Part shown: in pieces, positions 52 through 34,020 of the stretch
Numbering within the stretch: the stretch's first letter is position 1
How the letters are laid out: each line of letters opens with the position of its first letter
Source of the DNA: Thiomicrorhabdus sp.
GTDB lineage: Bacteria; Pseudomonadota; Gammaproteobacteria; Thiomicrospirales; Thiomicrospiraceae
Assembly (NCBI GenBank): GCA_021648625.1
Contig: JAKISK010000011.1
Span: 1-34,620, forward strand
Length of the DNA stretch: 34,620 bases
Direction: 5' to 3'
Notes under the pieces: generated by a model
What the model was told of the DNA's origin: nothing
The model's input: the letters and a program-made list of their open reading frames with translations, nothing else
Database searches by the model: none
Translations under genes and position numbers: made by a program

Positions 52-207
52 AGGGGGGGGAGAAATTTAAAGTGGGTTTTAAATACGTGCTGTTGGTTAT
101 TAAAATAGATCGAATTTAATTGTTTTCTATTGGTTTTAAGATACCGCTTGAACTTAAACGCTCCTCTTTATCCTTTTTAAATTGCTGTTTCGTGATTTTG
201 AGTTTTA
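52..207. other. Intergenic segment, no gene
   Basis: This stretch lies between a possible gene tail and the end of the 320-aa minus-strand gene. It contains the first copy of the G8 motif (53-60, then AGAAATTT) and otherwise A/T-rich DNA. No clear terminator hairpin or promoter was found. Confidence 0.4.
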
Positions 208-1170
208 CTATGGATATTTTACTGTCGGTAGGTGTCTTCCAAAATACCCTATTGATACTTTATTTTTGTTAAAGTCCGCTAGAATGTGCATTCTTTTAGC
301 ATTAGAAAAATTTTTGACGTGTTTTTCAAAAAGTCTTTTTCCTAAAGTAGGATGTATAAATTCTCTTTGCCTCGCATACTTTCCATTCTCCAATGTTGCA
401 CTGCTTTCACCAGAAATAGATAGTTCAGAATTTAACTTTAAATCCTCTATATCATTAGAGGTCAAGATCGCCATATTAAGTTTTGTTAGCGCTTCGATAA
501 TTTTATGAAAATCATCTATGGTAATAGAAGGGGATTTAAAGTTTTTTAATGCGGAATTGCAAAATATAAGATTTGGAAAGTCCTCGTTATCTTGCAAAAC
601 AAGGTCTCGAAGGTAGTTTTTGTTTTTCTGCCTTTCGTTCTCTAGCTCAGCTATATAAGCTTTTAAATGCTCTAAGGATGATATATTCGGTACATCTACT
701 GATTGTTCTTTCCATTCCTCATTTTCTTGCCATTGTCTTACAATCGATATTGGATTTGACAACCAGTTCTTATGTGATAAAAAGCTTATGGCGTATGATT
801 CTATATGAGAAGCTATCCCCAAGCTTGTTACCTCTATGCTTCTATCACTCGAAAGCATAAATAACATGTCTCTCAAAGCCTCTCGTTTATCTTCTTCAAG
901 CTCAATTAAAGGGCAGTGAACTTTACTGATAACATTTTTTACAATTAAAGAAATATCCTTGTCAAGATGATTAATCCATTTTCCGAAGATAAAACCTTCG
1001 GCGTAATTTAAAGTGTTCCAATTACCATGTCTATTATCTGCTTGGTTGAAATTAACTCTAGCAGAATCAGCATAGTGGATAAGTTCAAAAAAATCTTCTA
1101 ACTTATTTTGACAATCTACCGTAGAACTAAATGGAAGAGATTCATCATTGATAATAACGCTATTTGACAT
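208..1170 (-). CDS. Hypothetical protein, likely partner of a DUF3696-type ATPase
   Basis: A 320-aa protein of unknown function. It begins two bases after the stop of the DUF3696-type ATPase remnant, so the two were probably one translationally coupled operon. I see no signal peptide and no membrane segment, so it is likely cytoplasmic. A short charged, possibly coiled segment lies near residues 170-190. The last 50 or so residues (after HPTLGKRLFEKHVKNF, ending near IGYFGRHLPT) resemble the ending of small RelE-like proteins, where an arginine/histidine-rich strand pattern is common; this is an impression, not a domain hit. Pairing with an OLD/AAA15-like ATPase suggests a two-gene defence module. 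The gene itself looks intact although its partner is broken. Confidence 0.6.
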   Translation of the reverse strand: MSNSVIINDESLPFSSTVDCQNKLEDFFELIHYADSARVNFNQADNRHGNWNTLNYAEGFIFGKWINHLDKDISLIVKNVISKVHCPLIELEEDKREALRDMLFMLSSDRSIEVTSLGIASHIESYAISFLSHKNWLSNPISIVRQWQENEEWKEQSVDVPNISSLEHLKAYIAELENERQKNKNYLRDLVLQDNEDFPNLIFCNSALKNFKSPSITIDDFHKIIEALTKLNMAILTSNDIEDLKLNSELSISGESSATLENGKYARQREFIHPTLGKRLFEKHVKNFSNAKRMHILADFNKNKVSIGYFGRHLPTVKYP

Positions 1171-1172
1171 AA

Positions 1173-1701
1173 TTAATCACTTTCAATAAGCTTGTTTAGG
1201 CTTTTTTCCCATTCATCAAAAAAACCTTCTGGCCAATATTCAATACGACCAGAGGGTTCTATGGCTACTTTTTCAACTTGCACTGAATGCTCAGAACTAT
1301 CAATGTTTCTCGATAAGAAATACACACACACATTGTCAGCATCTATTAGCTTTGACTTTACCGACTGTCTAATTCCATTTAAAAAGTGATCACTATGAGT
1401 TTCAATAATTATTTGGACATCATTATGCGCTGCAATAGATATTAATTTTGCAATCAAAGCTTGACCCGCAGGGTGTAGGTGCGACTCTGGATTCTCTATC
1501 AGTAAAAGGTCCCCTGAGCGAGCACTTAATACTGCTGTTACAACAGGAAGTACATAGGTTAGTCCAAAGCCCGTATTTTCAGGGCGGAAATTTGCTGTTA
1601 TTGCATTGGCTGATGAAAACCTATAATGCAGGAATTAATTTTGCAATAACTTTGGTTCCTGGAGTGATTTCTGACATCCAAGCATTAAGATTATCTGTCA
1701 G
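1173..1701 (-). pseudogene. 3' remnant of a DUF3696-type AAA ATPase gene
   Basis: The minus-strand reading from 1701 gives NLNAWMSEITPG and IPAL, then a stop at 1621-1623. The continuation is in another frame: RFSSANAITANFRPENTGFG, LTYVLPVV, then the Walker B-like LLLIENPESHLHPAGQA, and finally IETHSDHFLNGIR. These are hallmarks of the C-terminal half of AAA15/OLD-like ATPases with a DUF3696 tail. The N-terminal half with the Walker A motif is absent, because the IS481 element starts at 1702. The frameshift near 1621 plus the truncation make it a pseudogene. An internal TTG at 1457 could still start a 94-aa fragment. The stop lies two bases before the 320-aa gene. Confidence 0.8.
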
Positions 1702-2783: not shown

Positions 2784-4739
<1,956 letters not shown>

Positions 4740-5005: not shown

Positions 5006-5024
5006 TTAACCGCATGGCGAAAAT

Positions 5025-5079: not shown

Positions 5080-5093
5080 GGACTATTCGGCTT

Positions 5094-5537: not shown

Positions 5538-5540
5538 AAA

Positions 5541-5566: not shown

Positions 5567-5571
5567 ATCAA

Positions 5572-9210: not shown

Positions 9211-11979
9211 ATGAACCTCCACATCACAGCCAACAGTCGTTTAAGCGCGACCTTAAAAAGCCGAGCGATTCCGCAGGGTATTCAGGTGTGTGAAACGCCA
9301 CAGGTGATGACTTTACCTCAATGGTGGCAACAGTGGCAGGAGGCGTGTTTGCTTAACGGCGAGTTGCCCATAGAGGCGTTGCCCGATAAAGTGCTCAGCG
9401 ATTTTGAATCGCTTTGGTTGTGGGAGCAAGCGTTGCAATCGGTGTTGCAGGATTCGTCTTCAGAGAAAAATGAGGATTTAAGTACCGTATCGCAGGCGTC
9501 CATTGCGTTGTTAAATGTGTCCAGTACCGCCAAACAGTTGCAACAGGCGTGGGTGCTCTCTCAGGAGTGGTTGCCTGAGTCGTGGTTGGATTCACCTTAT
9601 TTATCGCAAGAGTCGCAACTGTTTAAGCAGTGCCAACAGCATTATCTTAATGTCCTTAAAGCACGAAACTGGCAGGACAGTGTGTTAGCACAACAGCAGG
9701 CGTTGGCGTGGTTGGCACAAGGCAAAGGACGCTTACCCAAACAGTTCACCTTGCACGGGTTTGATGACATTCCTCCTTTTATGCAACAGTGGCAACGCCT
9801 TGTGGAAGCCCGTGGCGTATTGTGTGAAATCGCGGAACACGCTTCCAATGACAGCCCCTCAAAACAGGCGGATGGTTATGCGGCACAAGATGAACAGGAC
9901 GAAGTGCAACAGGTGGCACTGTGGTGTGTGGCGCAATGGCACGTTTTATCAAAATCCAAGCCCGCGCATGAGATTAAAATTGGGGTGGTGTCGCCTAATT
10001 TAGCGGATTATAAAGCCACGTTAACTCAGTGTTTGGACGAGCAACTTTATATACACGGTTTGCAACCGTTGCAAACGCACCGTACCTCGCCTCCTTTTTA
10101 TAATTTATCCTTAGGCGTTCCTCTGCTGGAATGCCCGTTGGTGCAAAATGCACTGCTCAGTTTGCAACTGTTTTTAACGCCCAATAAACCTTGCCTTTAT
10201 CAAGATTGGAGTCAGTGGCTTACCTCGGCTTACACATTGGGTAATTGGGTGCAACGCCAACAGGCAGACGCCGCGTTTCGTCAATTGCAATGGGCCTCTT
10301 TTTGCTGGCCAACCCTATTGGAAACCAAAGCGGCAAATGCCTTGCCTAACGCCTTAAAGCAGGTGTTAAGTTCGGCTCAAAAAATTCTCCCCCCCCCTAC
10401 TTTAAAAACCTTAAACGAGTTTATTGCTGCTTGTAGAACGGTATTGCAACAGATTAAATGGGGCACAGAACGCTCTTTAAACAGCGATGAATTTCAGCAA
10501 AAAACCGCATTTGAATCGGCGTTAAATCAATTTTCATTGCTGGCCGATATTCAGCAAAAACAGTCGGTGAGTGCATGGTTGTCGTTGTTTAAACGATTCT
10601 TGGCCGAGCAGTTGCATCAATCGCAAAGTAAAGGGCTGCAACCGATTCAAATCATGGGAATGTTAGAAGCGGGCGGGCAACCTTTTGATGCCCTTTGGGT
10701 GCTGGGCATGACCGATGAAGCGTGGCCAAGAGCCGCCAATCCCAATCCGTTTTTACCGATGGCGTTGCAACGAGAGGTGATGTCACCGCGTTGCGATGCC
10801 AAACGCGAATTGGCGTATGCGCAACAAGTGACCGAACGCTTGGCGCACAGTGCAACACAGCTTGTTTGGAGTTACGCCAAGCAAAAAGGCGATGCCGAGC
10901 AATTGATGAGTCCCTTGATTCAGGCGCTCAATTTATCCAGCTATGAGGCTAAATTGTACGACTCTTTGGCTAAAAGGTCGTTTCAGCAACATGCAACCTC
11001 GCCCGTTGAATGGGTGCTGGATGCACAAGGCCCCGAGATGGCAGAAGGCAGTAAAGCGCCCGGCGGCACAGGATTTTTGCAGGCACAGAGTCAATGCCCG
11101 TTAATGGCGTTTATGGACTACCGTTTGGGTGCAAAATACGGTTTGCAAACGGTTGAAGATGGTTTACAAAACAACAATCAAGGCATTTTAGTGCATGCGA
11201 TTTTAGAGCATTTTTGGCAAGAGACTCAAACACAGGTTGCGTTGCTTGCATTGAGTGAAGAGGCGTTGCAAGCGCGGTTGCAAGTTCACATTGAACACGC
11301 GTTTGCAACCTTGGCGAGTCATTTAGACAGCGCTTACTTAACCTTAGAAAAAGCACGTTTGGCGGAGTTGTGTTTGGCGTGGTTACAGTTAGAAAAAACA
11401 CGCCCCAGTTTTAAAGTGGTGCAGACCGAGCAACGCCATGAAATTATATTGTCGTACATTCAATTTAATGTGGTGATCGACCGTGTGGACGAATGCACCA
11501 ACGAAGGTGAAGGGGGGGGTAAATTTATTTTGGACTATAAAACGGGTAAAGCCAGCATTGAAGACCTACTCAAATACCCCAACAAAGCCCCGCAGTTAGC
11601 GGTGTATTTATTTGCGGTTCAAGATGAAATATCGGGTATTGGTTACGGTATTTTGCATTCAGACGACGGGGTTAAAATCAGCGCGATGGTTCAAGATTCA
11701 GACGTATTAGCGTTGCCCAAAGCATCCCGTTCTATTAAGGACTTTTCGAAACTGTCCGAAAAAAAGGATGGGGATTATTTTGACGTGCAGTGGCAAGATT
11801 TTTTAGAGGATCTAAAATCACAAGTATGGGAGTTGGCGGGTCAAATTCAACAAGGCCATGCCCCCATGGTGTTTGCCAAAGAGGACGACACTCAATACGC
11901 ACACTGTAAATTAGCACTGCGTTTGCCCGAAGTAAAGGCTCAAAAAAACCGCTTATTAGATAAAGAGGTCTCCGCATAA
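9211..11979 (+). CDS. AddB-like DNA repair nuclease (RecB-family exonuclease)
   Basis: A 922-aa protein with the layout of the AddB-like 'probable DNA repair protein' family. The N-terminal part is a helicase-like region without an evident P-loop. The C-terminal third is a RecB-type nuclease: GGTGFLQAQSQCPLMAFMDY, then HAILEHFW, then the active-site strands VVIDRVDE and FILDYKTGKAS (Asp ... Asp-x-Lys), then PQLAVYLFAV. With its partner it should process double-strand DNA ends for recombination, a RecBCD/AddAB-like role. I chose ATG 9211 because a longer frame from 9136 runs through the MITE. Its stop overlaps the next start (TAATG), so the two are translationally coupled. A C9 tract (10389) and a G8 tract (11512) lie inside it. 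Confidence 0.85.
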   Translation: MNLHITANSRLSATLKSRAIPQGIQVCETPQVMTLPQWWQQWQEACLLNGELPIEALPDKVLSDFESLWLWEQALQSVLQDSSSEKNEDLSTVSQASIALLNVSSTAKQLQQAWVLSQEWLPESWLDSPYLSQESQLFKQCQQHYLNVLKARNWQDSVLAQQQALAWLAQGKGRLPKQFTLHGFDDIPPFMQQWQRLVEARGVLCEIAEHASNDSPSKQADGYAAQDEQDEVQQVALWCVAQWHVLSKSKPAHEIKIGVVSPNLADYKATLTQCLDEQLYIHGLQPLQTHRTSPPFYNLSLGVPLLECPLVQNALLSLQLFLTPNKPCLYQDWSQWLTSAYTLGNWVQRQQADAAFRQLQWASFCWPTLLETKAANALPNALKQVLSSAQKILPPPTLKTLNEFIAACRTVLQQIKWGTERSLNSDEFQQKTAFESALNQFSLLADIQQKQSVSAWLSLFKRFLAEQLHQSQSKGLQPIQIMGMLEAGGQPFDALWVLGMTDEAWPRAANPNPFLPMALQREVMSPRCDAKRELAYAQQVTERLAHSATQLVWSYAKQKGDAEQLMSPLIQALNLSSYEAKLYDSLAKRSFQQHATSPVEWVLDAQGPEMAEGSKAPGGTGFLQAQSQCPLMAFMDYRLGAKYGLQTVEDGLQNNNQGILVHAILEHFWQETQTQVALLALSEEALQARLQVHIEHAFATLASHLDSAYLTLEKARLAELCLAWLQLEKTRPSFKVVQTEQRHEIILSYIQFNVVIDRVDECTNEGEGGGKFILDYKTGKASIEDLLKYPNKAPQLAVYLFAVQDEISGIGYGILHSDDGVKISAMVQDSDVLALPKASRSIKDFSKLSEKKDGDYFDVQWQDFLEDLKSQVWELAGQIQQGHAPMVFAKEDDTQYAHCKLALRLPEVKAQKNRLLDKEVSA

Positions 11980-14900
11980 TGTCTTCAACGTCTTCAAAAA
12001 ATTCTCCCCCCCCTATCGACATTCTATTAGGCGTACAAAAAGACCCCCATTTACTCGATGGTCAAGCCCGATTTGAAGCCATTAATCCGTTTGAATCGTA
12101 CATTGTACAAGCGCCTGCGGGGTCGGGAAAAACCGCGCTGTTAACCCAACGGTTTTTGGCGTTGTTATCGCAAGTGGCGCAACCCGAACACATTGTAGCG
12201 ATGACCTTCACCAAAAAAGCCGCCGCCGAAATGCGTGACCGAATTATGGGCGCACTTAATATGGGACGGCTGTCGAGCTTATCGAGTGACGCCAACCTTA
12301 ATGACCAAAACACGTGGCAACTGGCCAAACGGGTGTTGCAAAAAGACCAAGAGTTCGCTTGGGGATTGTTAGACAATCCAAACCGTTTACGCATTAAAAC
12401 CATTGATGGTTTAAACAGTTATTTGGTGGGGCAGATGCCACTGCTCTCTAAAATGGGCGCACCTTCAGCGATTTTAAACGATGCCTCGCCCGCCTATAAA
12501 GAAGCGGTGCATTCCACCTTAAAAGACAGCAGTGTAGCCCCCGAAGTGGGGCGATTATTACGCTTGGTGAATGGACGTTTTAACCGAGCCGAAAGCCTTT
12601 TGATGAATATGTTGCAAAAACGTGACCAGTGGATGGGCTCACTGTTAGGCTTTGCGGGCGATGACGCGCGTGCGTATTTAGAGCAAGCGTTAGAACACCT
12701 TGTGGCCAACGAACTGTCGCAGCAGGTGGCGCATTTAAGCCATATCATGCCTTCTTTAGAAGAGGCATGTACACTGGCGGAGTTTGCGGTACAGCATAAA
12801 CAACCTCAGTTAGAGGTATTGTGTGGGGCATGGCCGTTGAGTGATTCTTTGCATGATTTAGAGGCGTGGCGCGTGTTGGCAGATTGGTTGCTGACTCAAA
12901 AGGATGAACTGCGTAAAACGGTTAATGTTAAGAATGGGTTTCCTGCAGGAAAAGGCACCCCAAAAGAACGTAAAGACCAGTTTTTAAATGTACTTTCCAC
13001 GTTAAGAGAGGGGCATCATGCGCAACAGGTGGCGGAGAGTTTGGCGGTGTTAAGATCCCTGCCAGACCCTACGTACACGCAAGATCAGTGGGACGATTTG
13101 CAAGGGTTAATTAAACTGTTAAGCCTGTCTGCCGCCTATTTAAAGTGGGTGTTTCAATCATTGGGGCAGGCCGACTTTATTGAAATTGCTCAAGCCGCTA
13201 CCCAGTCATTGGGGTCAGAGTTAAATCCCACCGATTTAGCGCAGCAGTTGGACTATCAAATTCAACACCTATTGGTGGATGAGTTTCAAGACACCAGCAG
13301 TGAGCAGTACGCACTCATTGGTAAACTCATTGCCGGTTGGGAGGCGGGCGATGGACGTACGTTGTTTATTGTGGGCGATCCCATGCAATCCATCTACCGT
13401 TTTCGAGAAGCGGAAGTGGGAAATTTTTTAAAAGCATGGCAAGGAAAACTGGCACAGGTCACACTTAAACCAATTCAACTGCATGTCAACTTTCGTTCGT
13501 CGCAAGGCATTGTGGACTGGGTCAATCAAAACTTTAAAAAGGTACTGCCCGCGCACAATCAAATTGAAAAAGGTGCGGTGTGTTACAGCGAATCGCACGC
13601 CTTTCATCAAGATAAAAAGGGGGCGACCTCTAACGCAGTCACCGCGCATTGGGGCATTAACCGCTCAGATGACGAAGAGGCCAAAGAGATTGTGGCGCTT
13701 ATCCAGCAACGGGTGCAAGCGTTTAGTGAAGGTGACGGCAAAAGCATTGCGCTGTTAGGGCGCACACGCTCCAGTTTAACCCCCATTGCACGGTTGCTTA
13801 AACAGCAAAATATTGCGTTTAGAGCGGTGGATTTAGAAGGGTTACACGAACGGCAAGAGGTGCAAGACGTGCTGGCATTGAGCCGCGCGTTGTTGCACGG
13901 CTCGGATCGTGCCGCATGGATTGCGCTGCTGCGTTCGCCGTTGGTGGGGTTATCGCTCACCGATTTGTATGTCTTAATGGGCGAAAACCCCTACCAATCG
14001 GTTTGGCAATGTATTTTAGACAAACAAGAGGACGGTGTGTTTCAGGATGTTTTATCCAGTGATGCACGTCAACGTCTTGCGTTTTCCCTGCCCATTCTGC
14101 AACAATCCCTTTCACGTTTAGGCAGTTTGCCTTTCTCAGTGTTGGTGCAAGAGACGTGGCTACAGCTCGATGGCGCACAAACCGTTGAGCACATTTTGGC
14201 GTTGGAAAACGTAGAGGTGTTTTGCCAAACTTTAGCGGACTTTGATGGACAGCCACTGGATTTTGAACAGCTAGAAACCTTAATGCAACGCCTGTTTGCG
14301 CGCGCCGACAGTTCGCCAGAGAGCCAACGTATTGAGCTAATGACGATGCATAAATCTAAAGGGTTGGAGTTTGATACCGTGATTTTACCCGGCTTAGGCC
14401 GCAAGCCTCGCCATGACGACGATGAACTCATCTCCTGGTTTCAATTTAAGGTTTCCGAAGAGGGGGGGGGAGATTTTGAGCAACTCGTTATCGCGCCAAT
14501 TCATCAAAAAGGCAAACAGGCACAAACCCCGCAAGACGGCGAAAGTTCACCTCGATTAAAGCAGTTTTTAAAACGGTTTGAATCGCAAAAACAGAGCTAT
14601 GAACAAGGGAGATTGATTTACGTAGCCGCCACGCGCGCCAAGCAACAACTGCACTTATTTGGTCAACTTAACGTAAAAGAGAGCGAAGACACCGAAAAAG
14701 TCTTTCAGCCTGTCAAAGGCAGTTTGCTGGAAACCTTGTGGCCGTGCATTCAACAGGATTTTCATCGCCTGATTCAAGCGTACAATCCAGAGCAAAGTGA
14801 GTGCGAAGCGGGCGAACCATCCAAGCTTGCAAGCGATGTCGCCTCGTGGCCAAAAGTAAGCCGTTTGCCTTTGCCAGAGACGCGAAAAGCCAATCAACAG

Positions 14901-16855: not shown

Positions 16856-16921
16856 CCAAAAAACCTCTCTAAAAATATGGTATATTTGCTTGGGCTTTTA
16901 TCTTAAATAAGGAGAGTGTTT

Positions 16922-17737: not shown

Positions 17738-17865
17738 TTAATATTTGAAAATTAAGGCGAATACCCAACCTCTCCTTGATTGTAGATATAGGGGGGGGGT
17801 AAAATTTTAGATAGTTTGTTACTGGAACAGTAAAATAAACGGTTAAAATAGCGTTTGTATATAAC

Positions 17866-18593: not shown

Positions 18594-19459
18594 TTGCATC
18601 GTTTTTTAATTTTGAGCAGAGTAATGGTTAAAAACAATAAAATCCCCGCACTCACGGCAATTGAGGCCGAAATCGAGCTGTCTAATTGATACGCGAGGGT
18701 GTAGCCGATGGCCACCGAAGCTTGCGAATACCCTACTGCAAACCACAGCATGGTTTTGAGTGATTTGGAAATTAAGTAAGCACTGCTGGCGGGAATGACG
18801 AGTAGAGCCACTACGAGTATTGCGCCCACAGCATCAAAGGAGGCGACGGTGGTCATGGAGACCAGCGTCATTAAAAAGTAGTGCCAAAATACGATGTTGA
18901 TGCCAAGTGAAAGTGCCAGCTTTGGATGAAATGCCACCGTTTGCAAACGGTTGAATGCCACGATAATACTGACCAGTACAATCACAAACACCACCGTAAT
19001 TGCCCAGAAGGCACGAGGGCCAATGTTTACGCCGTCGTTTAAATTTTCTCCCCCCCCTATGTGCAGTGTATCGAAAGGAATAAAGGCGATTTCTCCGTAT
19101 AAAACGCACTCTTGGTCTAGGTCAATTTGCCCCGTGTAGAGCGAGACTAAAATAATTCCGATGGCAAAAAACAGGGTAAACACAATGCCAATGCTGGCAT
19201 CGCTTTGCAGTTTGCCCACACGGTTTAAAGTGTCGCTTAACCAAGCGGTAAGCAAGCCAATAATGACCGCGCCGCCGAGCATAATCGGCAAGGCTCGGCT
19301 GTCGGTGATGAGGTAGGCCAGTACAATGCCCAGCAGTACCGAGTGGCTGATGGCATCGCCCATTAAGGCTTGACGACGCAAAATTAAAAATACACCCACC
19401 AACGCACACGCGGCGGCAACCAGTGCGGCGGTGGCTAAAATCCAAATATCGTTGATCAA
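18560..19459 (-). CDS. Mn/Fe/Zn-type ABC transporter permease (second subunit)
   Basis: A 299-aa inner-membrane permease of the ABC-3 family (ZnuB/MntD/SitD kind) with about eight or nine hydrophobic helices. The opening LRRQALMGDAISHSVLLG is the conserved family signature. HIGGGEN in the middle is coded across a G8 tract (19050-19057). Its ATG overlaps the stop of the upstream permease-DtxR gene (ATGA-type, 19456-19459). With the other permease it should form the heterodimeric channel of the importer coded by this operon. The metal is not fixed by this subunit. Confidence 0.9.
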   Translation of the reverse strand: MINDIWILATAALVAAACALVGVFLILRRQALMGDAISHSVLLGIVLAYLITDSRALPIMLGGAVIIGLLTAWLSDTLNRVGKLQSDASIGIVFTLFFAIGIILVSLYTGQIDLDQECVLYGEIAFIPFDTLHIGGGENLNDGVNIGPRAFWAITVVFVIVLVSIIVAFNRLQTVAFHPKLALSLGINIVFWHYFLMTLVSMTTVASFDAVGAILVVALLVIPASSAYLISKSLKTMLWFAVGYSQASVAIGYTLAYQLDSSISASIAVSAGILLFLTITLLKIKKRCNYQTKSSGTSN

Positions 19460-20844
19460 ATTTTCTTACCCCTCAAGGGGGTACTAAAAAGAGCCCCTCC
19501 CTCTTTGGATGGAACGGATGACGGTGCCGGGATTTGATTGCCATGTGGGTCTTGTTGACTGTTGCTGAGTTCTTGTTGCAGTTGTGCCTCTTGAGCATCG
19601 GTTAAAATGTGTTCGATTCGTTCGGCCTGTTGATGCACTTGGTCGGGTGACAGCTGCGCTTGTTCATTAAGGTAGCTCTCCCACAAACGGTGACGACGCG
19701 TGAGCTGCGTGGCTTTTTGAATGCCCGTTGGGGTCAGAGTAAACCCGTGGGCGGTGGATTCAATTAACCCTTTTTTACCCAGTTGTTTTAGGGTACTTTG
19801 CAAGCAACTGCTGGGCATGCTTCTAAATGATTGAATGTCCGCTTGGGTAAAGTGGTGATGTACAAAATCGTGGCGTTCGTGCAGTTTATAAAGGGTGCGT
19901 AAAATATTCTCTTCGGCCACTTTTTGGCGCAAACGCTTGTAGTTTAGGTGCTGTTTAATCAGTCCTTTTTGCGGGGCGAAAAGCAGGGATAAAATAAACA
20001 GTACGGATAAACTCACCACCATCCACGGCCCCGTTGGCATGGCGGGGGCTAGGTAGGATATTTGGGTGCTAATGACGGCACTGAGTGCGCCAAGCAAGGC
20101 GGCAATAATCAGAATGTGAGACAGTTGATTGCTCCAGTAACGTGCCGCCGCCATGGGCGTAAGCAGTACCGCCGCCATCAGCACCACGCCCACCAATTGC
20201 AAACCAACTACCACGGACATCACAATTAATAACGCCAAGAGCAGTTCGTACCGATTGACGGCAATGCCAAGGGTGCGTGCGTAGGCTTGATTAAAGGCGA
20301 TGAGCCTAAGTTTTTGAAAAAACAGCATCACGGTAATGAGTACAAACACGGTGACGTAGGCGAGCAGTTTAATGTCGCCTTCGGTCATGGCGGCGGCTTG
20401 ACCAAAGAGTATTTTGTCTAGCCCGCTTTTATTGTTGACCTCCATTCCTTGAATCAGTGAGAGCAGCATTAATCCAATGGCAAAGAAAAAAGAGAGCGTG
20501 ATGGCCAGTGCCGCATCGGCTTTTATTTTGGTGTGTTTGGGCAGCCAGTCAATTAAGAAAAACCCAATAAAACTGCTGGTTAAAGCGCCGAGAAAAATCA
20601 CCAGTGGGTCGCGGGTTTGAAACAGCAAAAAGGCCATCATCACACCAGGCAGGGCGGCATGGGCAAGCGCATCACCAATGAGAGCGCGTTTGCGTAAAAA
20701 GGCAAAGCCACCAATCACCGAGGCGCTCATCCCCAGCAATATGCTGCCCATGAGCACCCACAACACATTCATGTCATCAAATTGCCAAAAGAGGCGCAAG
20801 TTCTCCCAAAGAGAGGGGGGGGGAAATAATTCAAAGCCTGTCAT
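19456..20844 (-). CDS. Mn/Fe/Zn-type ABC permease fused to a DtxR-like domain
   Basis: A 462-aa protein. Residues to about 295 are an ABC-3 permease (LRKRALIGDALAHAALPGV is the family signature). From about 300 to 440 comes a cytoplasmic domain like the iron/manganese-dependent repressor DtxR/MntR: a winged-helix region ending KKGLIESTAHGFTLTPTG, then RRHRLWESYLNE, then VHQQAERIEHILTD with the His/Glu metal-site pattern, then DPHGNQIPAPS. This fusion is known in some bacteria; it may sense cytoplasmic metal and gate transport, or bind DNA. A C9 tract covers codons 8-10 (PPP). It starts seven bases after the ATPase gene stop and is clearly part of the operon. Confidence 0.88.
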   Translation of the reverse strand: MTGFELFPPPSLWENLRLFWQFDDMNVLWVLMGSILLGMSASVIGGFAFLRKRALIGDALAHAALPGVMMAFLLFQTRDPLVIFLGALTSSFIGFFLIDWLPKHTKIKADAALAITLSFFFAIGLMLLSLIQGMEVNNKSGLDKILFGQAAAMTEGDIKLLAYVTVFVLITVMLFFQKLRLIAFNQAYARTLGIAVNRYELLLALLIVMSVVVGLQLVGVVLMAAVLLTPMAAARYWSNQLSHILIIAALLGALSAVISTQISYLAPAMPTGPWMVVSLSVLFILSLLFAPQKGLIKQHLNYKRLRQKVAEENILRTLYKLHERHDFVHHHFTQADIQSFRSMPSSCLQSTLKQLGKKGLIESTAHGFTLTPTGIQKATQLTRRHRLWESYLNEQAQLSPDQVHQQAERIEHILTDAQEAQLQQELSNSQQDPHGNQIPAPSSVPSKEGGALFSTPLRGKKI

Positions 20845-20851: not shown

Positions 20852-21652
20852 TTAATCGTCATCATGGGCTTTGTTAAGCTGAGTTCGGTACATGGTTTCG
20901 GTTAAATCGTTTAAGAGCGATAAGCGACCGCCATAGGTTTTATTGAGGTTCTCTTTGGTGAGCACCTGCTCAACAGGGCCTGCGGCAATTAGGCGGGCGT
21001 TAATAAAAATAATCCAATCAAAGTATTCGCCCACGGTATTCAGGTCGTGATGCACGCAGACAATGGTTTTTCCTTGGGATTTTAAGGTTTTAAACAGTTC
21101 TATAATGGCTTTTTCGGTGGACACATCCACGCCCGCAAACGGTTCGTCCATTAAATACAAACGGGCTTTTTGGGCCAGAGCACGGGCTAAAAACACCCGC
21201 TGTTGTTGGCCGCCTGAGAGTTCACTGATTTGGCGGTCTTTAAAGTCCCACATCTGCAAATCTTTAAGCGCTTGTTGGGCAATTTCTCGGTCGATGTTAG
21301 ACGGGCGTTGCCACAGTTTAAGTTGGCCATGTCGTCCCATTAATACCACGTCAAATACATTAATGGGAAAGTCCCAATCAATCTCTTCGCGTTGTGGCAC
21401 ATACGCGATGGCAAGGCGTTTATTGGTTAAGGGTTCACCAAAAAAACGTACCTCGCCCTCTAAGGTCGGTTCCAGCCCCATAATGCCTTTTAACAGTGTG
21501 GATTTTCCGGCACCGTTTGGCCCCACAATGGCAATGGTTTTGCCTTCGGGAATCTCAAAACTCACATCGGTTAGTACAGGTTTGTGGTGGTAGCGCATGC
21601 TCAGATTGTTGACCGACAGCGGCGCAAAAGGGAGGGGGGGGGTATTTTTCAT
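20852..21652 (-). CDS. Mn/Fe/Zn-type ABC transporter ATPase
   Basis: A 266-aa ABC ATPase (ZnuC/MntB/SitB kind). Walker A is GPNGAGKST (about 43-51), the Q-loop region is AYVPQREEIDWDFP, the signature is LSGGQQQRV, Walker B is LYLMDEPFAGVD, and the switch His is in VCVHHDL. It powers the importer. A C9 tract covers codons 4-7, directly after the start. It lies 14 bases after the substrate-binding protein gene and seven before the permease gene. Confidence 0.92.
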   Translation of the reverse strand: MKNTPPLPFAPLSVNNLSMRYHHKPVLTDVSFEIPEGKTIAIVGPNGAGKSTLLKGIMGLEPTLEGEVRFFGEPLTNKRLAIAYVPQREEIDWDFPINVFDVVLMGRHGQLKLWQRPSNIDREIAQQALKDLQMWDFKDRQISELSGGQQQRVFLARALAQKARLYLMDEPFAGVDVSTEKAIIELFKTLKSQGKTIVCVHHDLNTVGEYFDWIIFINARLIAAGPVEQVLTKENLNKTYGGRLSLLNDLTETMYRTQLNKAHDDD

Positions 21653-21666: not shown

Positions 21667-22575
21667 TTACTTAAGTGCCGACACAATGGTGTTTACATTG
21701 TGTTTGACCATGCCAATGTAGTGGCCAGTGGTGCTGTTTTTTAATCCCATGGCATCGGAGTAGAGTTCGCCGCCAATGGTGAGCGGGTGTCCTTCTGCCT
21801 CAACGCCTTTCACCAAGGCTTCAATAAAACGAGGTGAAACGCTGGATTCTACAAACACCGCTTTAATGTGGTTTTTAACAATAATCTGTTTCAGTTGGCG
21901 AATGTCCTGCAAGCCAAATTCTGAAGCAGTGCTCACACCCTGTAGTCCTTTCACTTGAAGGCCATAGGCGCGTCCAAAATAGCCAAAGGCATCGTGCGCG
22001 GTAATTAAAATGCGTTGCGATTCTGGAATGCGCTGTACCTCGTTTAAAACCCATTCATGCAACTGTTGTAGTTGGGTTAAGTAGGCCTGTGCATTGCGCT
22101 GGTAATCGGCTTGATGGCTAGGGTCTTCGGCAATTAAAATTTCCAACACGCGTTCACCTGCTTTTTGCCACAAGGTAATGTCAAACCAAATGTGAGGGTC
22201 TGGGCTGCTGTCGTGATAGATCAATTCATCGTTTGAAACTAGGCTACTGATGGCAAAGACCGGTTTTTTACGCGCCATTTTTTCAAAAATTTCTTGCAGT
22301 TTTCCTTCCAAGTGCAAGCCGTTATATAAAATAATATCGGCACGCACCAAACGACGTAGATCGCCCTGCGTAGCTTTATACATGTGAGGATCCACCCCTG
22401 TGCCCATCAATGCCGTCACCTTTACATGCTTGCCGCCAATGTTTTGGGTTAGGTCTGCAATCATGCCGGTGGTGGTCACAATATTAAGCTGTGCAAACGC
22501 CATTAGTGGCGCAAGCAATAAACTTAAGCCCAAAAGGAGGGGGGGGAGTTTTTTTGAAACGGTGAATAGCTGCAT
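21667..22575 (-). CDS. Mn/Fe-type ABC transporter substrate-binding protein (TroA family)
   Basis: A 302-aa periplasmic protein with a signal peptide (LLLGLSLLLAPLMAFA, about 13-28). The four metal ligands of cluster A-I proteins are visible: His in GVDPHMYKAT, His in PDPHIWFD, Glu in FVESSVSPR and Asp in GELYSDAMG. The His/Asp-rich loop of zinc-specific ZnuA is absent, so manganese or iron is the likelier substrate; this is inference. A C8 tract covers codons 10-13. It is the first gene of the operon. No strong ribosome site is seen before the ATG. A dyad lies about 50 bases upstream. Confidence 0.88.
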   Translation of the reverse strand: MQLFTVSKKLPPLLLGLSLLLAPLMAFAQLNIVTTTGMIADLTQNIGGKHVKVTALMGTGVDPHMYKATQGDLRRLVRADIILYNGLHLEGKLQEIFEKMARKKPVFAISSLVSNDELIYHDSSPDPHIWFDITLWQKAGERVLEILIAEDPSHQADYQRNAQAYLTQLQQLHEWVLNEVQRIPESQRILITAHDAFGYFGRAYGLQVKGLQGVSTASEFGLQDIRQLKQIIVKNHIKAVFVESSVSPRFIEALVKGVEAEGHPLTIGGELYSDAMGLKNSTTGHYIGMVKHNVNTIVSALK

Positions 22576-24918: not shown

Positions 24919-24958
24919 TAAGAGGATTAACTCGAATGCTGGAAAAAAAGGGGGGGAT

Positions 24959-26461: not shown

Positions 26462-27370
26462 TTACCAACTTGTAATGGCACTACCACGGGTCGAAATGCT
26501 GTATTCAGGCGTTAGCATGCCCCGTTCTTTTTGGCCTACGTTTCGATTTTGGATGATGCCATCATCCTGTTTATCGGCGACGACTCGTTGATAGGTTTGA
26601 GCGTCAACACGAATGCCCCATTTTTTAACGGTTTTAATTTGACTGCTTTCCTCGCTGGCAATGGGCAGTGCGAGTATATTTCCTTGGCGATCAATGGCTT
26701 CTATGATCAAATAATAGTTACGTGTATTTTGATTAACACTGGGCACACGCCATATGCCAGAACGCTCATTAGGCCGTTGAACAATGCGAAGAGTGTAGGA
26801 TCTTTTTAGCTTGTCTACCATTAAGCGCAGAGATTGAAGTGCGTCTTTTGCTTCATCATAATTTTTATTATTGAGTGCCTGTTTGCCGTTTTGTTTTAAC
26901 TGTAGGGCTTTTGTCACCACATCCTTATTTTTTGCAATGGTCACCACTTGTTCATAGTGTTGAGTTAATTGATTGGGTAAGGCGTTTTGAGCGGTTTTTT
27001 CTGGTTGGAGTATAAAAAAATAATATAAAACGGGGAGTATAAACAGTGCAAATAAACCTAGCATTACAGGCTTTAACCACTTATCACGTTTAACGTAAAT
27101 ACCTGCAATGCGGGTCATCAATGAAGCTGTGGGGGGGGAATATTTAAAACGCCCTTCCTCCATGGCGCGAACCCCTTCGGCCAATACCTTATCACTAATG
27201 TCTAACCCCTGAGCTTGATAGATACCACGTAATTTTTCAACCATTCGGTCACGGCGAGCATCGGCATCTAATTCTCGGTCTATAAGAAGTGTTTGATGCC
27301 TGAGCGTATCGACAACATCCATTGCCGCCATCAACGCTTCCAAAGGTACTTTTTTAGTTGTGTTTGTCAT
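26462..27370 (-). CDS. DUF6384 family membrane protein
   Basis: A 302-aa protein. The N-terminal domain (about 10-80) has AAMDVVDTLRHQTLLIDREL and GRFKYSPPTA, which I associate with DUF6384. One membrane helix follows at about 100-120 (VMLGLFALFILPVLYYFFIL). The remainder, probably periplasmic, has an alpha-helical part and a beta-rich C-terminus (SGIWRVPSVNQNTRNYYLII). A G8 tract (27131-27138) codes SPP in the N-terminal part. It begins 18 bases after the TelA-like gene stop and is part of the same operon. Function unknown. Confidence 0.75.
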   Translation of the reverse strand: MTNTTKKVPLEALMAAMDVVDTLRHQTLLIDRELDADARRDRMVEKLRGIYQAQGLDISDKVLAEGVRAMEEGRFKYSPPTASLMTRIAGIYVKRDKWLKPVMLGLFALFILPVLYYFFILQPEKTAQNALPNQLTQHYEQVVTIAKNKDVVTKALQLKQNGKQALNNKNYDEAKDALQSLRLMVDKLKRSYTLRIVQRPNERSGIWRVPSVNQNTRNYYLIIEAIDRQGNILALPIASEESSQIKTVKKWGIRVDAQTYQRVVADKQDDGIIQNRNVGQKERGMLTPEYSISTRGSAITSW

Positions 27371-28887: not shown

Positions 28888-30144
28888 TTAAATCTTAAAC
28901 GTAGGTCGAGACTTTGGTTTTTTAAGGGCTTTGTGCGTACGAGTGAGTTGCACCATGACTTCGGTGTGGGTGGTGTGCGGAAACATATCAATCATGCCTG
29001 CTTTGGTAAGGCGGTAGCCTTGTTTTTCGAGTTCTTTAATGTCTCGAATTAGGGTGGCGGCGTTGCAGGAGACGTAGACGATAATATGCGCTTTAAGTTT
29101 GCCCAGTACTTTGCTTAGATTAAACGCGCCTTGGCGACCGGGGTCGAGTAAAATTCGGTCGTATTTCTGTTTTTTAAACCACGGTTTTGGGGTGACTTCT
29201 TGAAAGAGATCGCCTTTGTAAAATTGAACCGAGTCCAATGTGTTTTGTTGGGCGTTAAATGTGGCCGTCTCTACGAGAGATTGCTCCCCTTCAATGCCTA
29301 CGGTGGTGTGTACTTGTTGGGCGATGGGTAGGGTAAAGTTGCCTACGCCACAAAAAAGGTCGAGTACTTTATGCGTTGGCTTTAGGTCTAACCAAGTGAG
29401 TGCTTGGGTAATCATCTGTTCGTTAAGTGATGGGTTGATCTGAATAAACCCTTCGGTGGGAAATGTGATTTTAAGAGGGCTGTGGGTGTTGAGTGTGTAG
29501 TACGGTTGAGCGTTTTGAGGCTCCGAAACCGTTTCAGGTAGCCCAAAAATGCCATTGCTGGCCTCGACTAATGTGACCTCTTTTAAGGCTCGGCTGGCGT
29601 TGTTTAGTAAGGCGGCTTTGTGGGTTTTAATGGTTTGATTTAAGCTTTCGGTTAAGACGGGGCAGTGGTCAATGTCCACAACCTCGTTAGAGGCTTTTTG
29701 TTTAAAGCCTAAGCGTGCCACTTTGTCTTTTTTGCTAATCACATAGCTCAGTCGAACGCGACGACGATAGTGTGTGTCGCCTCCTAAGAGTGGGGGGGCG
29801 GTTTTGTATTGTTGCGCGTCCACGGCTTGGGTCAGTTGGGTAATGAAGTTTTGATTTTTCCAGTGCCGTTGTGCATCAAGTGATAAATGCTGTAGCTGAC
29901 ATCCGCCACATTCATCGTAAACAGGGCAAAAGGGGGCGACGCGTTCGGGTGAGGGTGTTTTGATTTCTAGGCACTCGGCTTCGTCAAAATTGTCGTGATG
30001 TTTGATGATGTTTGCGGTCACAATATCACTGGGAACGGCGTCTGTCACAAAAATGGTTTTGCCTTCAAAGTGGCCTACGCCACGACCATCATGGGTAAGT
30101 CCATTAATTTGTAGGTTTTCTAAGCGTGTGTTTTGGGTTGTCAT
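28888..30144 (-). CDS. rlmD: 23S rRNA m5U1939 methyltransferase RlmD
   Basis: A 418-aa RNA m5U methyltransferase that uses S-adenosylmethionine to modify U1939 of 23S rRNA. An N-terminal TRAM domain (about 7-60) is followed by the 4Fe-4S cysteines in FCPVYDECGGCQLQHL with a further Cys in DHCPVL. The SAM site is KVLDLFCGVGNFTLPIA, then LLDPGRQGA, and the catalytic nucleophile Cys lies in VYVSCNAATLIRD. The ending MFPHTTHTEVM is typical. The length fits. No clear ribosome site is seen, but the ATG at 30144 fits family N-termini. Confidence 0.9.
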   Translation of the reverse strand: MTTQNTRLENLQINGLTHDGRGVGHFEGKTIFVTDAVPSDIVTANIIKHHDNFDEAECLEIKTPSPERVAPFCPVYDECGGCQLQHLSLDAQRHWKNQNFITQLTQAVDAQQYKTAPPLLGGDTHYRRRVRLSYVISKKDKVARLGFKQKASNEVVDIDHCPVLTESLNQTIKTHKAALLNNASRALKEVTLVEASNGIFGLPETVSEPQNAQPYYTLNTHSPLKITFPTEGFIQINPSLNEQMITQALTWLDLKPTHKVLDLFCGVGNFTLPIAQQVHTTVGIEGEQSLVETATFNAQQNTLDSVQFYKGDLFQEVTPKPWFKKQKYDRILLDPGRQGAFNLSKVLGKLKAHIIVYVSCNAATLIRDIKELEKQGYRLTKAGMIDMFPHTTHTEVMVQLTRTHKALKKPKSRPTFKI

Positions 30145-30633: not shown

Positions 30634-30647
30634 TTTAAACGTTTAAC

Positions 30648-32195
30648 TTATTCCGCGAGTGGAATAAGTTTCCCTTTTCGGTTGTAGGTGGCCCAAATTA
30701 AGTTTTGTTGAATCCGTTGATCTTTAAGCGTGAGTTCGCCTGTTTTTCCGTGGGCTAAATAAGCGCCCATTTTTAAGGAGTGTAAATTCGCGGCGACCTG
30801 AAAGCTGTCCCAACCAAAGGCTTCAAAGTTGGAGGTTAAGTTTTTGGGTTGAAATACCACGGAGTGCGCTAAAAATTGTACCCCAGCTAAGTCACGGTTC
30901 GATTTGATTTTATGTGGCTTTTTAGGCGAGATTTGTGCTGTTCCATAGATGGGGGTTTTTAAATCAAAATAGACAAACTGTGGTTTAAAAACGGCCATGC
31001 GTGTTGCATTATCAATAATCACAATGGCATCAAAGTCTTGACGGGTACGTGGAAAAAAGGCCAGTTTTTGCCCTGTTGCCCTGCGAAGTGTATCGTAACG
31101 TTCTTTACTTTTACCTTCATTAATTAAGGCATTTAGTGCTTGGCGAAGTTTGGGCTTTTTATCAGGGTAAATGCTTAAAAACGCACTGTGTCCTGCTGTT
31201 TGTTCCCATGCGGTTTTAAGGTTATTGGCCATTTTAGCGTCCACACGGCCGTCGTTGCTTAGGATGCCGATGTTTTGATAGTTTTTTGCCTTAAAGCGTG
31301 TAATAAGTTGTGAAATCTCATTGGCCGATTTATAGCTAAACTGTGTGAATGGCGCGTATTCAATTTGGTTAAGAGCCAGTACGTTTTCGTCGGCAATGCT
31401 AATTAAGCGATCAATGGCCTCTTTACGAAGAGGCCCGATAATAAAATCGGCACCCGTTTGTTTGGCTTGTTGGTAGATGTTTTCTAGCCTATCTAAATTT
31501 GACGTATTATGAAACGTTACCTTGGTGCGCTGATCTGAGGCCATAAAGGCTTTCATAATGCCACTTTTAATTTGGCTGGAAACATGCTCGTATTTCCCAT
31601 CAAATGGCAGTAAAACGGCAATGTGCTTGGGGGGGGTAACATTGTTGTTTTGCATTGTTATGCCAGGCAGTAGGTGTTGCATGTAAATGGCATCACTGTT
31701 GCTACGGCTTAATTTAGCAAGATTTTTTTGTAATTTTTCGGCAGGGCCTTTAAGCACAGAGAGTAATTTTCCCCACTGCTGTACCGAGGTGCTTGGGTGT
31801 TGCTTTAGGGTTTGAACGGTACGTTTGATCTCTTGCAGTGGTTGCTGGCTGATCGCATCCCAAATTCGTTGTTCAATTTGAGCTTGCTTCGTTTCTCTGG
31901 CATCTTGCCAAAGCTGGTGGTTCAATAAAATAAAATTAGGCCATTCGCCTTGTTCTTGGGCGATACTTGCTTGCACGTTTAATTCGACATCACTTAAGGT
32001 AATTAAGTCCTCGGCTTTAATTTGTGGTTTTGGCGTGTTTTTTATGATGCTAGGGCTGTAGCTTGGTTGCTTGGAAGAAGGTGCCTTTTGAGTGTGCTTT
32101 GGCGGCATGCTACAGCCGTTTAATGTGAGTAAAGCAATTAATGCACTGGAGAGAGTTAGGCTTTTTATGGGGTAAAGAGGTATGATATTTTTCAT
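30648..32195 (-). CDS. lpoA: Penicillin-binding protein activator LpoA
   Basis: A 515-aa outer-membrane lipoprotein with lipobox LNGC (Cys 28). The N-terminal part is helical, TPR-like. From about residue 190 comes a type-I periplasmic-binding-like domain (HIAVLLPFDGKYEHVSSQIKSG, ADFIIGPLRKEAIDRL, NIGILSNDGRVD), as in E. coli LpoA, which stimulates PBP1A. It is divergent from rsmI and upstream of yraN, the classic order. A perfect -10 hexamer TATAAT is seen about 40 bases before the ATG (32234-32239, minus strand). Confidence 0.9.
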   Translation of the reverse strand: MKNIIPLYPIKSLTLSSALIALLTLNGCSMPPKHTQKAPSSKQPSYSPSIIKNTPKPQIKAEDLITLSDVELNVQASIAQEQGEWPNFILLNHQLWQDARETKQAQIEQRIWDAISQQPLQEIKRTVQTLKQHPSTSVQQWGKLLSVLKGPAEKLQKNLAKLSRSNSDAIYMQHLLPGITMQNNNVTPPKHIAVLLPFDGKYEHVSSQIKSGIMKAFMASDQRTKVTFHNTSNLDRLENIYQQAKQTGADFIIGPLRKEAIDRLISIADENVLALNQIEYAPFTQFSYKSANEISQLITRFKAKNYQNIGILSNDGRVDAKMANNLKTAWEQTAGHSAFLSIYPDKKPKLRQALNALINEGKSKERYDTLRRATGQKLAFFPRTRQDFDAIVIIDNATRMAVFKPQFVYFDLKTPIYGTAQISPKKPHKIKSNRDLAGVQFLAHSVVFQPKNLTSNFEAFGWDSFQVAANLHSLKMGAYLAHGKTGELTLKDQRIQQNLIWATYNRKGKLIPLAE

Positions 32196-32233: not shown

Positions 32234-32239
32234 ATTATA
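32234..32239 (-). promoter_or_regulatory. Probable -10 element of lpoA promoter
   Basis: TATAAT on the minus strand, 39 bases before the lpoA start codon. The -35 is weak (CAACTT at 17-bp spacing). It lies in the 101-bp divergent region between lpoA and rsmI. Confidence 0.5.
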
Positions 32240-32296
32240 GCGTAAATTATCACGTAAAGTTGCTTACAGGTTTAAAATAAGAAGCGGTTTGCGAGT

Positions 32297-33178
32297 ATGA
32301 AACAGGAGAGCACCATTAATACTACGTCTGAAATAACAAAACAGGGCACACTATTTATTGTCGCTACGCCCATCGGTAATTTAAAAGACATTACACAACG
32401 AGCGGTGGAGACGTTAGAGGCGGTTGATTGGGTTGCCGCAGAAGACACGCGCCATACTCGACCGTTGTTACAATCCTTAGGTATTAATCAGTCGTTAATT
32501 AGCCTGCATGACCACAACGAAGCACAACGCAGTGTCCAGTTGTTGCAACGTTTACAGCAGGGCGAAACGGGGGCATTAGTCTCGGATGCGGGCACCCCAT
32601 TGATTAATGATCCGGGCTATCACTTGGTTAAATTATTGCGAGAACATAATATTAATGTTGTACCAATTCCTGGAGCCAGTGCGGTGATTACTGCGTTATG
32701 CGCCGCAGGCTTACCCACTGATCGTTTTAGTTACGAAGGTTTTTTACCTGCAAAATCGGGTAAACGATGCTTGGTGTTGGCGGGGTTAAAAGAGGATGTT
32801 AGAACCTTGGTTTTTTATGAATCTCCACATCGTGTGCAAGCGACACTGCTGGATTTAAAGCACGTATTTGGTGGCGACCGAGTGATGTCGGTGGCGCGCG
32901 AGTTGACCAAGAAATTTGAACAATTCGTGCAGGGAACGGTTGATGAAGTTATTGCTTACTTTGATGCAAACAGCGATAAAGTTCGCGGAGAGTTTGTGTT
33001 AATGGTGGCGGGGGCAAAAGAAAAAAAGGCGGTGGCGCTGTCAGAGTGGGACGGTTTAATTGAGGTACTGTTAAAACAAAATTTACCCGTAAAGCAAATT
33101 TCTGAAATTATCGCGGAGTATGCGGGCATTAAAAAGAAACCCGTTTACAGTCGAGTGTTAGAAATTAAAGGCAAGTAA
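32297..33178 (+). CDS. rsmI: 16S rRNA 2'-O-ribose C1402 methyltransferase RsmI
   Basis: A 293-aa tetrapyrrole-methylase-fold enzyme that methylates the ribose of C1402 in 16S rRNA. The signature opening is LFIVATPIGNLKDITQRA, then AAEDTRHTRPLL, then SDAGTPLINDPGY, with the SAM-binding region VPIPGASAVITAL and FYESPHRVQATL. The length and start fit the family. It is divergent from lpoA and overlaps the 3' end of rsmJ by 34 bases on the opposite strand. Confidence 0.93.
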   Translation: MKQESTINTTSEITKQGTLFIVATPIGNLKDITQRAVETLEAVDWVAAEDTRHTRPLLQSLGINQSLISLHDHNEAQRSVQLLQRLQQGETGALVSDAGTPLINDPGYHLVKLLREHNINVVPIPGASAVITALCAAGLPTDRFSYEGFLPAKSGKRCLVLAGLKEDVRTLVFYESPHRVQATLLDLKHVFGGDRVMSVARELTKKFEQFVQGTVDEVIAYFDANSDKVRGEFVLMVAGAKEKKAVALSEWDGLIEVLLKQNLPVKQISEIIAEYAGIKKKPVYSRVLEIKGK

Positions 33179-34020
33179 CCCGAAGCGTGCAATGCTTTAA
33201 TCACGTAAATATCGTAGCGAGTATTGGGGCTAAAAATTTGAGTGGTGGGCACCAGTTTTGGATTGTCTAACTGAATAATGGGGGCATTTTTAGGGCGCTT
33301 TACCACCACTCGGTAACGAGCGGCTTGCAGGGCAGCTTGCAGCAAATGTTGACTGTCTTGATCCGGGCCTACTAAGGTTTGTAGAACTTTCATCTCTTTT
33401 TTGGTGGCGGCCTTTTTTTTCTTTTCGGGGTACATGGGATCCATATACACCACTTCGATTGGGTGAGCGTGATTGATTGTTTGATGGTGTAAAAAGTGAG
33501 TAGAGTCGGTATGAATCACCTGTAAACGTGCGAAAATATCATGCAGTTCCGAGTCGGAATTTTCCGTTTTTAAAAAAGCTTCGCCACGTAGTAACGCGTC
33601 TTTTAAGAGTGCAGATACCGCCATAGAGCGTTCTAACATCAGTACGTGACAGCCCAGAGAGGCAAGAACAAAGCTGTCGCCCCCCATGCCTGCGGTGGCA
33701 TCAACAACGTATGGTAGGCGATTCTCTATTTTTCCCATGGCTCTTACGAGCGGTTGATTTTTCCCCCCCCCATAGTGGCGACGATGTGCTTTTTTACCCG
33801 TTACAAAATCAATAAACACCGCGCCACTGTTGGTTTGGAATAGCGCCAGTTTTGGGGAGCTGTCTTTTGTGTTGCGATGCCATCCTAGGGTGATTTTGGG
33901 CGGAGTTTTAAGGGAGTTTGCCAGTGGCAGTTGGTGCAGTTGACTCAAGGCTTGCGCTTCGTGTTGTGCGAGCTTTGGGTCTGCCAAGGAGCAGGTTTGA
34001 ATGGCGATGGCGTCGATCAT
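33145..34020 (-). CDS. rsmJ: 16S rRNA m2G1516 methyltransferase RsmJ
   Basis: A 291-aa Rossmann-fold methyltransferase that modifies G1516 of 16S rRNA. The SAM site is YVVDATAGMGGDSFVLASLG, followed by LERSMAVSALLKDAL and the catalytic region VVYMDPMYPEKKKKA, characteristic of RsmJ. I chose the ATG at 34020 (MIDAIAIQTC) because AAGG lies about 8 bases upstream; a longer frame from 34059 adds 13 unconvincing residues. A G9 tract (33763) codes GGG in HYGGGKNQP. It is convergent with rsmI. Confidence 0.88.
   Translation of the reverse strand: MIDAIAIQTCSLADPKLAQHEAQALSQLHQLPLANSLKTPPKITLGWHRNTKDSSPKLALFQTNSGAVFIDFVTGKKAHRRHYGGGKNQPLVRAMGKIENRLPYVVDATAGMGGDSFVLASLGCHVLMLERSMAVSALLKDALLRGEAFLKTENSDSELHDIFARLQVIHTDSTHFLHHQTINHAHPIEVVYMDPMYPEKKKKAATKKEMKVLQTLVGPDQDSQHLLQAALQAARYRVVVKRPKNAPIIQLDNPKLVPTTQIFSPNTRYDIYVIKALHASGYLPLISNTRL

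Follow-up and report, generated by a model that had tools for sequence, protein, structure and literature searches.

A G-run motif in the window

The window analyzed here, positions 1 to 34,620 of contig JAKISK010000011.1 in a Thiomicrorhabdus sp. assembly (GCA_021648625.1), carries dispersed copies of a short directional motif, a run of about eight G residues followed by A/T-rich bases, to which we refer as the G8 motif. The motif marks one clade of sulfur-oxidizing marine bacteria. Within the genus, the motif is overrepresented in the source genome (G000; 1.92 Mb, 96 contigs, 79.6% complete) and in five others (G023, G012, G044, G017, and G001); these six G8 genomes are all drafts, 79 to 94% complete and in 96 to 320 contigs. 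The properties described below suggest that the motif may be a DNA uptake signal.

A recount of the window gave 19 runs of seven to nine G or C residues, 15 of them at least 8 long, exactly as the first-pass annotation of this DNA had reported, and its spacing of about 1.3 kb outside an accessory region was reproduced as one tract per 1,346 bp from position 10389 to the window end. Its description of copies in genes and between them, with the reading frame kept, also held: 15 of the 19 tracts lie in open reading frames (ORFs) and 4 between them, and the tract-bearing ORFs are open with their frames intact. The copies in the regions of 10377 and 11995 do share sequence, the exact shared length being 20 bases rather than the 22 or so aligned bases claimed.

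The best form of the motif, AGGGGGGGGAGAAATTT, is intergenic at 53..67 (+ strand). Gene names given below for products without a Pfam match are readings of the translations. The addB-like gene contains a G9 copy at 10389..10397 (−), which reads PPP and is present in the ortholog of G017 and not in that of G023, and a G8 copy at 11512..11519 (+), common to G017 and G023, in an EGGGKF loop that is missing or shorter in five motif-free relatives. Four copies lie in the addA-like gene: a G8 at its start (12006..12013, −; common to G017 and G023), a G9 at 14462..14470 (+; common to G017, G023, and, shifted, G001), a G8 at 15359..15366 (+; absent from the G017, G023, and G001 orthologs), and a G8 at 15461..15468 (+), where G023 and G001, and not G017, have a G run in the same loop. 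The 3' end of this gene (15376-15625) is duplicated downstream at 16602-16851 over about 250 bp with 93% identity, and this partial duplicate has its own G7 copy (16687..16693, +). Over the addA-like protein, a Thiomicrorhabdus sp. MAG contig (L009) shows 69% identity.

Further along, a G9 copy is intergenic at 17791..17799 (+), and G017 shares the next four coding sites, namely, a G7 in a 182-aa ORF (18437..18443, +), a G8 in an ABC-3 permease gene (19050..19057, −), a G9 near the 5' end of a second permease-like gene (20815..20823, +), and, in shifted position, a G9 at the start of an ABC ATPase gene (21634..21642, +). A G8 copy near the start of a gene that reads as znuA-like (22539..22546, +) corresponds to a run of 7 in G017. 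The remaining copies are an intergenic G7 (24950..24956, +); a G8 in a 302-aa ORF for which the compared loci have no ortholog (27131..27138, +); a G7 with a weak flank (CGG next), not present in G017, in a 418-aa ORF that is RNA methyltransferase-like from its translation (29792..29798, +); a G8 in an lpoA-like gene, absent in G001 (31629..31636, +); and a G9 in an rsmJ-like gene, where it encodes a conserved GGG tripeptide (33763..33771, −), the last two genes also being named from their translations.

Between 61 and 10388 the window has no tract, versus 4.7 expected at the density of the genome sample described below (Poisson P = 0.009, for a single region picked post hoc). This tract-free region includes, among others, an rve-integrase gene and an IS200-type transposase gene. 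Beside the integrase gene, 2754-4739 and 208-1170 encode proteins of 661 and 320 aa with no Pfam match.

Genome-wide abundance and the motif unit

The 1.92-Mb assembly of G000 contains 529 runs of at least eight G, split 266 to 263 between the two strands, or about one per 3.6 kb. Tract statistics were obtained from a 419-kb sample (the window plus 20 other stretches), with expected counts from an order-1 expectation. Run lengths up to G6 are near expectation, and the excess begins at G7, with observed and expected counts of 48 and 18 for G7, 74 and 4 for G8, 44 and 1 for G9, and 19 and 0.2 for G10. In total, 192 runs of at least seven G (G7+) were observed versus about 23 expected, which is far from the near-expectation count that the first-pass annotation had named as evidence against its motif.

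The A+T fraction of the 8 bases downstream is 0.60 to 0.65 after G3 to G6 runs and rises to 0.82, 0.875, 0.90, and 0.91 after G7, G8, G9, and G10+ runs, so that the A/T enrichment over other G tracts, on which the earlier claim also depended, is real and specific. The flank is not universal: WDWWWW follows 26 of 48 G7, 96 of 118 G8-9, and 23 of 26 G10+ runs. Upstream A+T stays at 0.60 to 0.67 whatever the run length. The unit is RRA-G(7-9)-ARAAWTTT, with an A/T-rich 3' side only and at runs of at least 7 only; an alignment anchored at the last G of each tract carries information at about 18 positions, with nothing clear beyond. Flank composition in G023 behaves like that in G000, and samples of G044, G012, and G017 gave similar consensuses.

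The core is nearly all-or-none. With a WDWWWW flank, there are 96 perfect G8-9 cores versus 21 with one interruption at positions 2 to 6 (3 of these adjoin a G7+ run). A further 54 cores, in which position 7 is not G, were excluded, since 51 represent the last bases of a genuine G7+ run together with the flank's A-G. The G8 motif thereby shows the strong core consensus that marks the DNA uptake sequences (DUS) of Neisseriaceae and the uptake signal sequences (USS) of Pasteurellaceae. The full 17-mer consensus is looser, with 5 perfect occurrences, 19 with one mismatch, and 25 with two, compared with 0, 0, and 0.1 for permuted words.

Restriction to one clade

We scanned 32 genomes of the genus, 62 of the family, and a class sample of 369 that includes G000 with the pattern AG7RARAAW. 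It occurs in 6 of the 32 Thiomicrorhabdus genomes (112 copies in G023, 87 in G000, 82 in G012, 65 in G044, 59 in G017, and 50 in G001), with 0 copies in the other 26. These six are also the only carriers in the family set, all in one genus, and in the class sample the pattern was found in 22 genomes, G000 and 21 with exactly one copy each. The same pattern read backwards has 12 to 30 copies in the G8 genomes; part of AG7RARAAW, with its purines and A's on both sides, is therefore less specific than the forward counts suggest.

In an AddA protein tree of 13 genomes, midpoint rooted for drawing only, the four G8 genomes included (G012 and G044 are not on the tree) form one clade (98/95), and G006 adjoins it (95/95). 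G006 was considered as a weak carrier on account of 16 occurrences of AG8W and was rejected: it has 0 copies of AG7RARAAW, none of the 5 runs sampled from it is clearly flanked by A/T, and it has a palindrome instead (106 copies; see below).

Origin of copies in place

The 15 coding tracts of the window were aligned codon by codon with their orthologs; 14 were alignable, and one has no ortholog. A G run stands at the same site in 9 of 12 comparisons with G017, 4 of 6 with G023 (leaving out two paralogous rows at 26 to 32% identity), and 2 of 4 with G001, and in 0 of 33 site-genome pairs in the non-G8 genomes G006, G009, G010, G015, and G003. Conservation of positions in orthologous genes, which the first-pass annotation had proposed to check, thus extends to most sites in G017 and to none in the five non-G8 genomes. 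The GGG tripeptide of the rsmJ-like product illustrates how copies arise: four non-G8 relatives encode it with GGT, GGA, and GGC codons (GGTGGAGGT in G009 and G015), and G000 encodes it with nine Gs. Tract sites were made by synonymous change or are sited in variable-length loops. Substitution in place at permissive sites, as seen in these alignments of 14 of the 15 window coding tracts, is also characteristic of DUS and USS. GGG and CCC codons are retained inside tracts versus outside them at 17 of 19 versus 45 of 72 sites in G017 (P = 0.03) and at 6 of 7 versus 15 of 38 in G023 (P = 0.04).

Placement, strand, and pairing

ORFs for placement counts were called by script, with a minimum of 100 aa in G000. 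There, 65 of the 192 G7+ tracts are intergenic, versus 13% noncoding sequence in the sample; the other 127 lie inside ORFs, 72 with the direction of the gene and 55 against it. The G-rich strand, as judged by local GC skew only, carries 132 of the 192 (69%), compared with 62 to 67% of ordinary G3 to G6 tracts.

Tracts are also paired. Within 100 bp, G000 has 22 neighboring pairs versus 9 expected, of which 13 are convergent, 5 tandem, and 4 divergent. Across a six-genome sample of 306 tracts, neighbors closer than 40 bp, a limit chosen after tandem neighbors had been viewed, form 21 pairs, 16 convergent and 5 divergent, with no tandem pair (P = 5e-7 for no tandem). Of the 16 convergent pairs, 13 occupy gaps between ORFs and have the 3' end of one or both neighboring genes facing the pair, 1 lies between divergent genes, and 2 are in called ORFs. 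Five of the 13 convergent pairs in G000 were hand-picked for folding; all five, some of which have T tails, gave GC hairpins (z −2.1 to −4.4). In placement, these pairs match the inverted pairs at transcription terminators that are described for DUS, and a role as terminators is predicted for them. Close pairs hold 42 of the 306 tracts, and 209 of the 264 unpaired tracts are in coding sequence.

Palindromes in sister species

An unbiased word count showed that G009, which lacks the G8 motif, is full of the palindrome CCAGGCCTGG, weakly extended as TTACCAGGCCTGGTAA. More than 100 copies occur in 10 of the 32 genomes (G009, G015, G019, G043, G016, G022, G007, G040, G010, and G006), ranging from 106 in G006 to 856 in G019; five further genomes have 15 to 44. 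A second palindrome, ACCGGCCGGT, has 1025 copies in G024 and at most 15 in every other of the 32 genomes. The G8 motif and CCAGGCCTGG are mutually exclusive, the six G8 genomes having no copy of the palindrome except one in G001. Samples of 40 to 120 kb from G003, G011, G013, and G014 contained no dispersed word of comparable strength, and these genomes have at most 15 copies of either palindrome genome-wide.

On the AddA tree, palindrome carriers adjoin the G8 clade (G006) and occupy two other places. Because they stand at three places, the simplest history is that the palindrome came first and the G8 motif later; with a midpoint root, the palindrome may instead have been gained repeatedly.

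A candidate DNA uptake signal

Our preferred reading, which we consider moderately likely by analogy with DUS and USS, takes the G8 motif as a DNA uptake signal, a self-recognition tag for natural transformation that was spread by biased transformation. What points to this reading is that the motif bears marks of DUS and USS: its copies are dispersed, have a strong core consensus, arose by point mutation where the site was permissive, form inverted pairs, and are of a clade-specific type. A further such mark, scarcity in acquired DNA, may be reflected in the one tract-free region of the window. A surface receptor, probably a minor pilin of a type IV pilus, would prefer DNA containing RRA-G(7-9)-ARAAWTTT, and fragments with better copies would be taken up and recombined more often. 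Greater uptake of better copies would in turn drive improving point mutations to spread wherever proteins or regulatory DNA tolerate them. Convergent pairs would then have been co-opted as transcription terminators, and the unrelated palindromic word still carried by sister species may have given way to the G8 tag in this clade.

One close likeness is to the USS of Pasteurellaceae (AAGTGCGGT and ACAAGCGGT). According to the available parts of PMC1626085, these have many dispersed copies, subclade-specific types, an origin by point mutation, a strong consensus (stated there for both USS and DUS), and, in segment 2, a core followed on its 3' side by a tract that opens with A and closes with T. 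The G8 motif shares these features and differs in that its core is a G run of variable length, that it has no second A/T segment, and that its role in uptake is a prediction. Neisseriaceae DUS, as described in the portions of PMC3630211 and PMC2397512 available, are likewise of lineage-specific types and missing from some relatives. They are scarce in recently acquired genes, and their inverted pairs serve as terminators; they are unrelated to the G8 motif in sequence and occur at higher density, and their receptor domain ComP_DUS was not found above cut-off here.

The competence protein ComEC was found in 28 of the 32 genus genomes, including 5 of the 6 G8 genomes, and N-methyl pilin signatures were found in 11 of 12 genomes, among them all six G8 genomes; the pilin sets comprise tandem clusters, which by size and order we read as type II secretion-like, and larger type IV pilus-like sets.

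Several results weigh against an uptake signal. ComEC was not found in G000 itself (79.6% complete), and its presence elsewhere says little because it is widespread (10 of 14 control genomes). ComP_DUS (PF16732) scored above cut-off in 0 of 32 genus genomes, with one weak match below it, and a by-eye comparison of pilins yielded no G8-specific receptor candidate. The A/T flank follows just 3 of 7 runs in the small G001 sample, retention of GGG and CCC codons at shared sites is just modestly above that elsewhere, and tandem neighbors do exist further apart (5 of the 22 pairs within 100 bp), the 40-bp limit having been set post hoc. In the six genomes' samples the density is 0.24 to 0.55 G7+ tracts per kb, below the 2245 to 5918 DUS per genome given in the available parts of PMC2397512 and PMC3630211, and the second A/T segment of USS is lacking. 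Furthermore, dialects within a known family share a core (CTG in DUS, ANNNGCGGT in USS; excerpts of PMC3630211, PMC2397512, and PMC1626085), whereas no core is common to the G8 motif and the sister palindromes. Palindrome pairs within 100 bp are also not above chance (observed versus expected, 1 versus 1.7 in G024, 2 versus 3.5 in G009, and 0 versus 0.6 in G015), which counts against a view of the palindromes as elements of the same kind as the G8 motif. A strong hairpin is predicted for one ACCGGCCGGT pair in G024 with a spacing of 25 bp (L088:11008-11068, z −6.0).

Alternative explanations

The first-pass annotation had offered several functions, of which a genome-wide motif was borne out, an uptake sequence is the best supported, and a contingency repeat and a guide of the KOPS (FtsK orienting polar sequence) or AIMS (architecture imparting sequence) kind were not sustained. 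We rejected a contingency (phase-variable) repeat: few loci would be expected and hundreds of copies were seen, two-thirds of the sampled tracts (127 of 192) lie in ORFs with conserved flank and intact frames, and the aligned window sites are mostly variable loops or gene starts. Chi and KOPS are short G-rich words with many copies, and the base content, frequency, and strand preference of the G8 motif would suit a Chi-like hotspot read by an AddAB/RecBCD-type nuclease or a KOPS-like segregation guide, oriented and tuned to replication direction. Ordinary G3 to G6 tracts nevertheless show nearly the same bias, so that the orientation of the motif is not clearly beyond local base skew, and convergent hairpin pairs are unexpected of a directional signal, which leaves an oriented word of this kind quite improbable. 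That the G runs are artefacts, i.e., homopolymer miscalls or runs grown by slippage, might be suspected since all six G8 genomes are drafts; yet the frames are open, the 3' flank is specific, sites are shared across separate genomes, and none was found in 26 congeners, several of which are also drafts, making this extremely improbable.

The conserved A/T tract beside the G run and the hairpin pairs, some with T tails, would be natural in a nucleoid-protein site or a terminator module of which single copies are by-products. Such a structural or regulatory role explains part of the copies, but the small share of tracts in close pairs, the location of most unpaired ones in coding sequence, and the absence of the pattern from 26 of 32 congeners all argue against it, and convergent hairpin pairs at gene ends would not be expected of a nucleoid-protein site; we regard such a role as rather improbable. 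Also unlikely is a word kept by a DNA methyltransferase or by repair bias, with species-specific replacement words, as for the cyanobacterial HIP1 (highly iterated palindrome 1). The sister palindromes CCAGGCCTGG and ACCGGCCGGT speak for it, but the G8 motif is directional rather than palindromic and pairs into hairpins at gene ends, and no methylase that recognizes a run of Gs is known to us. For HIP1 and its replacement palindromes, the accessible part of PMC4390886 describes iterated words, dispersed in the genome, of which one takes the place of another in a related strain, with replacement alongside a change of methyltransferase. Sister Thiomicrorhabdus palindromes resemble such words and can fairly be read as HIP-like and linked to methylation; they and the G8 motif may differ in kind and simply be mutually exclusive among the genomes sampled.

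A bolder proposal, which we advance tentatively and with some doubt, is that a genome-wide self-DNA tag has been swapped wholesale within one genus among the unrelated words ACCAGGCCTGGT (a palindrome), ACCGGCCGGT (a second palindrome), and a directional poly-G. If this is true, the palindromes are uptake tags too, unlike the DUS and USS of the consulted portions of PMC1626085, PMC2397512, and PMC3630211; with each swap the receptor would have had to acquire a new specificity and hundreds of sites would have had to be rewritten; and Thiomicrorhabdus would offer a natural series in which to follow changes in uptake specificity and the isolation of lineages by them.

Uptake tags treated in the available parts of PMC1626085, PMC2397512, and PMC3630211 are those of Pasteurellaceae and Neisseriaceae, and Campylobacter recognizes methylated DNA (PMC8468864, in part). 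Among the matches listed in the open-licence literature, no title concerned a G8 or palindrome motif of Thiomicrospira or Thiomicrorhabdus, and that literature gave no match for “uptake sequence” with Thiomicrospira or for natural transformation with Thiomicrorhabdus. An uptake signal here, if true, would be a further independent case, in environmental sulfur oxidizers and with different words inside one genus, and comparison of sister species could then test what bacteria gain by tagging their DNA and how a receptor and its genome evolve in step. For annotation, G8 or C8 stretches in the G8 genomes should probably not be taken for sequencing errors, and the hairpins that they form probably act as terminators.

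Other features of the window

The ORFs at 15727-16314 and 16916-17647 adjoin the addA-like gene and end in what we take to be PEP-CTERM-like sorting signals; one of the two resembles a secreted metalloprotease (HEVGHALGLGH). A dispersed element of about 160 bp with inverted CCCTAATCCCCAGATAG-type ends, which looks like a miniature inverted-repeat transposable element, occurs in the window at 22771-22933 and 28702-28865 and also in the sampled stretches L012, L015, L019, L020, L022, L023, L025, L027, L028, and L029, with more than 12 copies in the 419 kb.

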